Origin: Bacilli bacterium
GTDB taxonomy: Bacteria > Bacillota_I > Bacilli_A > RFN20 > CAG-826
Length of the DNA: 64,000 bases
NCBI GenBank assembly: GCA_024408655.1
Contig: JAKSUV010000001.1
Coordinates: forward strand, 131,544 to 195,543
Direction of reading: 5' to 3'
Shown here: piece after piece, positions 33,333 through 34,003 of the stretch
Layout: each line of letters starts with the position of its first letter
Position numbering within the stretch: position 1 is the first letter of the stretch
The notes under the pieces: generated by a model
What the model was told of the DNA's origin: nothing
Seen by the model: only the letters and a program-made list of their open reading frames with translations
Database searches by the model: none
Translations under genes and position numbers: made by a program

Positions 33333-33360
33333 TTGTTTTTATTAAATACTAATATATAAT
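33333..33360 (+). promoter_or_regulatory. Promoter of a candidate small RNA
   Basis: TTGTTT at 33333-33338 and TATAAT at 33355-33360, 16 nt apart, with no gene downstream on this strand. It is followed within 60 nt by a terminator-like hairpin. Confidence 0.6.
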
Positions 33361-33366
33361 GATAGT

Positions 33367-33416
33367 TGAATTGAGAGTCCATGGAATGCAATTGGAGCAC
33401 CGTTCGGCTCTCTTTT
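33367..33416 (+). ncRNA. Candidate small RNA of about 50 nt
   Basis: From the predicted start near 33367 the RNA contains GAGAG-T-CC (33373-33380) pairing with GGCTCTC (33406-33412), then TTTTT. An inner hairpin GAG-CA-CC-GTTC-GG-CTC competes with the longer stem. No convincing reading frame is present. It ends 5 nt before the end of the opposing nuclease-like gene, so it could also be just a terminator with an orphan promoter. Confidence 0.4.
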
Positions 33417-33420
33417 TATT

Positions 33421-33906
33421 TTATCTTTTGTAGAGCAATTTGTTATTTAGCAAAGATATCTTATCCTTTGGATACATAGTAATAATCTTATTAATTTTAG
33501 CGTCGATTTTGTTAATTAGGGCGACGTCTTTTTCAATGATTACAATAATGTTCACTTTGTTCCTAAATAATACATCGGTTACGATAATGTATCTTTTGCT
33601 TCTTTTTAAGGATTCATATATTTCTTTAGGATGATCTATAGCATTAAGGGTTTTAAATGCTTCTTCAATAGACAGCGCATGGAAATTATGTGAATTATTT
33701 CTTCCTCCACTTTTCATAGTTGCCCATAATGTACTCGGTCTGACATATATTGCGTTTTTAGTGAAAATGTAGTCTTTCACAAGAAGGTTTAAATGTTTGA
33801 GGTGGATGTTGTCTATTCGAATTTCACTATAGACATATTCCCTTCTTTTTAATTTTGATAATTCCTTTAAGGCATCTTTCTCTTTTTTAATGTTTATTAA
33901 TTTCAT
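33421..33906 (-). CDS. Putative BECR-fold (PBECR-like) nuclease
   Basis: A 161-residue protein. The N-terminal third is helical and basic; the rest alternates strands with short helices. The pattern HNFHALSIEEAFKTLNAIDHPKEIYES followed by KRYIIVTDVLFRNKVNIIVIIEKD and an ITMYPKDK end resembles phage-associated barnase/EndoU/RelE-like nuclease domains. That is a family-level impression without a search. A structured leader with a terminator-like end lies directly upstream. No obvious antitoxin gene is adjacent. Confidence 0.5.
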   Translation of the reverse strand: MKLINIKKEKDALKELSKLKRREYVYSEIRIDNIHLKHLNLLVKDYIFTKNAIYVRPSTLWATMKSGGRNNSHNFHALSIEEAFKTLNAIDHPKEIYESLKRSKRYIIVTDVLFRNKVNIIVIIEKDVALINKIDAKINKIITMYPKDKISLLNNKLLYKR

Positions 33907-33918
33907 AATTATGGAAAT

Positions 33919-34003
33919 AAAAAAGGGGCAAAAGTCCTCCCCTCTACACTAATGATAACACACCAATCTAGTCTTATGGGGACACTTTATCATTTTGCCC
34001 TTT
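33919..34003 (-). promoter_or_regulatory. Attenuator-like structured leader of the putative nuclease gene
   Basis: On the minus strand GGGCAAAA (34000-33993) pairs with TTTTGCCC (33933-33926), AATGATAA (33994-33987) with TTATCATT (33958-33951), and GTCCCC (33983-33978) with GGGG (33942-33939). The same GGGG can pair with CCCC (33928-33925), which is followed by six T, to form a terminator. The two states exclude each other, the normal design of a transcription attenuator. It ends 13 nt before the gene. Confidence 0.6.
33949..33993 (-). CDS. Possible 14-aa leader peptide in the attenuator
   Basis: An ATG with AAAGGG 4 nt upstream opens a 14-codon frame that ends in TAG inside the structured leader. 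It spans the arms that choose between the two stems, so ribosome position could set the choice. This is inference; the frame may be accidental. Confidence 0.3.
   Translation of the reverse strand: MIKCPHKTRLVCYH

Follow-up and report, generated by a model that had tools for sequence, protein, structure and literature searches.

A gene for a MuF_C-like predicted nuclease and a small structured RNA on the opposite strand: a candidate toxin/RNA-antitoxin pair in one family of Bacilli

How is a predicted nuclease gene controlled when it is preceded by a leader that can fold into alternative hairpins? The question is raised by a locus in a stretch of 64,000 nucleotides from an uncultured gut bacterium of the Bacilli (GenBank assembly GCA_024408655.1, contig JAKSUV010000001.1, positions 131,544 to 195,543; hereafter the window), for which a sequence-only reading had proposed translation-dependent attenuation of a BECR-type nuclease gene or, alternatively, the end of a small mobile element. 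The main feature of the locus is another one, overlooked by that reading: a conserved RNA encoded on the other strand, at the gene's 3' end (Table 1). Protein-blocking RNA antitoxins are known for few toxin families, and the classical ones have the RNA upstream in the same operon. With moderate confidence, we regard the locus as a pair of an RNA antitoxin and a nuclease toxin, type III-like in principle.

Table 1. Features of the locus, in positions of the window.
Feature	Position	Strand	Remarks
161-aa solo MuF_C-like (phage BECR) nuclease, predicted toxin	33421..33906	-	Pfam, AlphaFold2 fold, conserved residues
85-nt leader	33919..34003	-	AAAGGG at 34003; base stem 34000-33993/33933-33926, inner stem, apical hairpin; U6 at 33924-33919
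Short terminator-like hairpin	33919..33945	-	33945-33939/33928-33922, U6 33924-33919
14-codon frame ATG..TAG (MIKCPHKTRLVCYH)	33949..33993	-	preceded by AAAGGG
Small structured RNA (candidate RNA antitoxin)	33366..33422	+	R1, linkage, covariation; convergent with the nuclease gene
Small-RNA hairpin	33373..33412	+	7-bp outer stem, inner stem, conserved AUUGG loop
U-rich tract TTTTTATTTTA, predicted intrinsic terminator of the small RNA	33413..33423	+	terminator-like site 33394-33411
Small-RNA predicted promoter	33333..33360	+	TTGTTT, 16 nt, TATAAT

The protein matched the Pfam family MuF_C (PF18819) with an E value of 5.3e-6 and 26.9 bits, just under the cutoff of 27.6. MuF_C, the only Pfam family returned for the nuclease homologues, which are 149-178 aa long, matched 23 of 25 of them at E<0.01 (best 9.8e-10). 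An AlphaFold2 model of moderate confidence (pLDDT 78, pTM 0.78) retrieved phage MuF C-terminal/nuclease domains from BFVD with Foldseek at E values of 1e-6 to 8e-4; among solved structures (PDB), no match to the model was found below E 0.001, and none was ToxN-like. N5, N33, N40, F48, K50, H73 and H76 were invariant in the 25 sequences, and K140 and T143 were present in at least 90% of them. The active site of the BECR fold is made of a His plus a Ser/Thr in PBECR domains, MuF-C among them (PMC5512222), and the conserved H73, H76 and T143 fit such a site. The family match and the fold, together with a conserved His and a C-terminal Ser/Thr, establish the protein as a member of the MuF_C/PBECR group, with predicted nuclease activity and toxicity; the proposed BECR-type nuclease gene is thus borne out as far as sequence match and modelled fold go. 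Searches of PHROGs, PADLOC and NCBIfam gave no match for the window protein and no consistent match for its homologues, and IMG/VR and phage and plasmid collections contained no relative of it. The protein shares its Pfam family, fold and likely His...Thr site with the PBECR/MuF_C domains of phage and polyvalent proteins, and solo versions have been noted previously in phages and mobile elements (PMC5512222). It differs from these in belonging to a solo chromosomal family that occurs in one bacterial family and is accompanied by an RNA of its own; the literature searched, which took in only a minority of subscription journals and preprints, described no RNA partner for any MuF_C protein.

Upstream of the gene, the leader lies in the interval that separates it from cmk on the minus strand. 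The nested stems, the U6 tract and the 14-codon frame with its AAAGGG are all present as first described, and so is a terminator-like hairpin between the promoter region and the gene. In the minimum-free-energy fold, the base stem formed by GGGCAAAA and UUUUGCCC is combined with an inner stem, GUCCCC/GGGG-GGAC, and with a hairpin at the apex. This fold has an energy of -25.5 kcal/mol, compared with -17.3 ± 3.2 kcal/mol for dinucleotide shuffles (z -2.6; 1 of 200 shuffles as good), and the copy in the genome G003 gave a z score of -3.3; since both copies fold better than their shuffles, the structure goes beyond chance. The alternative is a shorter hairpin, GAGGGG.../CCCCUUU with the U6, which reuses the GGGG and CCCC arms of the long fold and is weak when taken by itself (-8.7 kcal/mol, z -0.7).

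Such a leader, with a short frame led by a Shine-Dalgarno (SD) sequence, alternative hairpins and a U tract, resembles the erm and cat translation attenuators, and one may suppose that ribosomes stalling in the 14-codon frame, which overlaps one of the arms, switch the fold and induce the nuclease, so that the leader senses translation or its inhibition. We consider this very unlikely, despite the better-than-shuffled fold and despite the presence of a short SD-led frame and a terminator before the homologue of the genome G001 as well. The two proposed conformations each place a stem directly before the U6 and hence both predict termination; the closed fold is itself terminator-like, since its base stem adjoins the U tract. 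No state of the leader frees this tract unless a ribosome covers the arms, and a mutually exclusive terminator and antiterminator pair, as in an erm or cat type of device, is absent from it. When the intergenic region was shuffled with its dinucleotides kept, 6.4% of the resulting sequences contained an SD-led frame of at least 14 codons, and the frame is not strong evidence.

Conservation points the same way. The leader is confined to the window's genome (G000) and G003, two near-identical genomes in which it is 99% identical, and most of the 31 distinct homologues are without it, an observation that the sequence-only reading had itself named as refuting its model. A clear terminator precedes the gene in three of the 31, namely in the window, G003 and G001; that of G001, whose protein is 56% identical, is a different one (GAGAGGCTTGCCTCTCTTTTTT; GAGAGGCUUGCCUCUC-U6), its leader has no overall fold (z -0.2), and its leader peptide is MCTQKQ where G000 and G003 have MIKCPHKTRLVCYH. 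Frame and leader are thus not conserved with the nuclease gene, and the function of the downstream gene also differs from that in the erm and cat systems. The idea of a mobile-element end fares no better: a search of the window's genome for further copies of the 85 nt returned the one copy only, and in the genome G002 the gap is empty. The leader hairpins are a real but local feature, probably a terminator or brake on the gene rather than a translation sensor.

Other homologues are preceded by other arrangements. Five loci (L006, L011-L014) have leaderless promoters with a palindrome TTATTACAT..ATGTAATAA, four (L035, L038, L040, L041) have a short leader whose Shine-Dalgarno sequence could be paired with, and thereby masked by, a pyrimidine run located upstream of it, and the remaining ones show no recognisable device before the gene. 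Weak expression of the nuclease may therefore be a common theme, of which the terminator would be the version of the window's lineage. The leader would be a terminator, either constitutive or relieved in part, and would hold expression of the nuclease below that of the RNA; other lineages would seemingly use other forms of weak expression.

Past the stop codon of the nuclease gene, the other strand carries in succession TTGTTT-16-TATAAT, GAGAGTCCATGGAATGCAATTGGAGCACCGTTCGGCTCTC and the U tract, which would give an RNA of about 50 nt whose terminator overlaps the nuclease stop codon. A covariance model, R1, was built from an alignment of 20 such RNAs; the window copy, which is part of the seed, scored 62 bits (E 5e-14 in a 1.1-kb stretch). 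The leader had been considered as a copy of this RNA and was rejected, R1 giving it 10 bits. In 70 distinct rows of the 3' hairpin, 88.3% of the cells were paired, both partners varied in 10 of 12 pairs, and covariation scored 0.432, against 0.203 ± 0.013 for shuffled and 0.04-0.14 for slid alignments. RNAalifold on a plain MAFFT alignment of the short forms found the inner stem only; the outer stem was placed manually before the test on the 70 rows, so that the alignment leans towards it. The shuffled and slid controls are far lower, however, and the structure of the long forms (see below) was predicted by RNAalifold independently. G-U cells outnumbered A-C cells by 106 to 23, and this wobble asymmetry fixes the strand of the RNA; single-sequence folds of the reverse strand failed in L034 and L037 and were weaker in L035 and L038. 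A -10 box of at least 5/6 was present in 35 of 38 short-form RNAs, compared with 39% of shuffled 30-mers. Lax and strict Rfam searches of the window region, eight long-form loci and single RNAs returned nothing credible.

Of the 31 distinct nuclease genes that are intact, 30 have the RNA within about 300 nt, and in all 30 it is encoded on the opposite strand: 23 are convergent, 6 divergent upstream and 1 has RNAs on both sides. The count includes 28 genes whose own locus gave an R1 match no more than 300 nt away, L052, taken from the wider locus L102 where an RNA lies on each side, and L053, which has the RNA scaffold (see below) at its contig edge. The sole unlinked gene (L050) ends 47 nt before the end of its contig, and no intact nuclease gene among the 31 was without the RNA where its flank was present. 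In G002, the site occupied in the window has no module and the flanking genes are 184 nt apart.

One could hold that these RNAs form a small-RNA family of their own, or are bidirectional terminators, and adjoin the genes by chance. More than 20 of the RNAs lie away from any nuclease gene, one of them syntenic beside tRNA-Leu in G000, G003 and probably G001, and such orphans could reflect an independent function, or the RNA may act on something else. The linkage and the fixed orientation, the separate promoters, the covarying inner stem and the conserved AUUGG loop nevertheless make a chance association quite unlikely, and the divergent RNAs, being located upstream, cannot serve as terminators of the gene.

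The orphan beside tRNA-Leu in the window's genome (G000:C9:36153-36209; L088 3001-3057) has a 40-nt hairpin identical to that of the RNA beside the G001 nuclease, which is 56% identical to the window protein. Several RNAs, including some without a nuclease gene, are head to head with a gene for an XRE-type regulator of about 300 aa (L097, L100 at 18060, L120, L121), which may share or control the RNA promoter region.

Several of the orphans adjoin decayed nuclease genes. Stem pairing amounted to 94% in orphans and 92% in nine RNAs beside decayed nuclease genes, and to 84% in the linked RNAs, which are the most diverse set. RNAs that stay intact where the nuclease gene is lost, with no lone intact nuclease gene, form the asymmetry expected of an antitoxin. 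The data on linkage and structure would fit any dedicated RNA partner, including an activator, a guide or a substrate of the nuclease in a ribonucleoprotein effector, and the long forms described below, in which a conserved scaffold of about 110 nt stands before a variable 3' hairpin, could be read in this sense. Yet a cofactor without its enzyme should decay, whereas orphans are more numerous among the RNAs than among the nucleases, and RNAs survive next to nuclease genes that are dead; an effector role is therefore unlikely.

An inhibitory RNA could act on the mRNA or on the protein. As in type I toxin-antitoxin systems, RNA and toxin are in many loci encoded on opposite strands, and in the 23 convergent loci the 3' ends of the two genes overlap. 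Moreover, in one lineage of the genus g17 (L040, L041, L055), 16-21 nt of the scaffold RNA are complementary to a stretch of the nuclease mRNA around codons 9-16, a match at the sequence level that would fit antisense control in that lineage, and L030 has an RNA-mRNA match of 18 nt. In the divergent loci, on the other hand, the genes do not overlap, and outside the short 3' overlap complementarity was inconsistent across loci, and a simple score for it did not exceed chance for the window and most of the other loci. The RNA also retains a compact covarying fold, and its partner is a globular, nuclease-like protein of the length given above rather than a small hydrophobic peptide. A type I antitoxin that base-pairs with the nuclease mRNA thus appears decidedly improbable, and, given the chance level of complementarity, binding of the protein is the most likely mode of action.

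Taken together, these results lead us to favour a pair in which the solo MuF_C/BECR-fold protein would be an endoribonuclease that harms the cell, and the short folded RNA, expressed from a separate promoter on the other strand, would keep it in check, most likely by binding and blocking the protein, which is the principle of type III systems. Orphan RNAs would then be harmless remnants or antidotes against incoming copies. We give about an even chance to the wider proposal of a new RNA-protein toxin-antitoxin family, in which MuF_C/BECR toxins, akin to effector domains of phages, are neutralised by a modular opposite-strand RNA, made of a variable 3' hairpin to which the conserved scaffold may or may not be added, and orphans serve as antidotes against foreign copies.

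The type III systems ToxIN, CptIN and TenpIN, and likewise AvcID and AbiF/RCd22, consist of a small protein and a dedicated small structured RNA, the protein being an endoribonuclease in ToxIN. A further point of likeness is the terminator before the nuclease gene in the window copy, and the tandem RNA units of some loci may be another. By definition, a type III antitoxin RNA lies upstream of the toxin in the same operon, with a terminator between the two (PMC5086642); here, this order was found in none of the 30 linked loci, the RNA having a separate predicted promoter and being encoded on the opposite strand, either after the gene or divergent from it. The protein has a MuF_C/BECR fold instead of that of ToxN, and no homology to ToxN/AbiQ, CptN or TenpN was detected in the Pfam and PDB comparisons. 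The RNA fold is another one as well, absent from Rfam; usually there is a single RNA unit, and orphan RNAs are many. AvcID and AbiF/RCd22 indicate that type III-like action reaches beyond ToxN (PMC10511110, PMC12373285). If our reading is true, a phage-type nuclease fold with a new opposite-strand structured RNA would widen the class of RNA antitoxins, short covarying RNA ligands would be available for the MuF_C/BECR fold, and the persistence of orphan RNAs beside dead toxin genes would be explained.

Both parts were found only in the window's own family, which is represented here by MAGs only. Searches of 279 genomes of the order with the protein and of a sample of 395 genomes of the class with R1 gave nothing outside this family; a search for the scaffold motif in 392 genomes of the phylum gave nothing beyond the family.

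In some loci the RNA is longer, the folded scaffold standing in front of the variable 3' hairpin, and a second type of scaffold is present in others. The alignment of 19 long forms contained 30 pairs in 8 helices (97.9% paired), with a covariation score of 0.591 against 0.237 when shuffled and at most 0.10 when slid. Mostly the RNA is one unit; two or three complete units occur in L005, L031, L036, L100, L114 and L117, and in L005 and L031 each unit has a separate -10 box and U tract. In L100 (G204:C8), some 2 kb separates two nuclease/RNA pairs, each of them with two long RNAs in tandem, and an additional orphan RNA lies about 14 kb further on; in total, R1 has seven matches in the G204 genome, which contains four nuclease genes. 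Arthrobacter phages also have the P3 hairpin of the long scaffold (stem, GGGCCCAUAAAAAGGUACA, stem, GAAUGG), with a 4-bp stem of its own, in the interval that separates the portal gene from the head gene next to it (L189 9607-9635; L190 2501-2544, which is Arthrobacter phage Jasmine 9596-9639), and this resemblance may reflect chance, convergence or a shared protein-binding motif.
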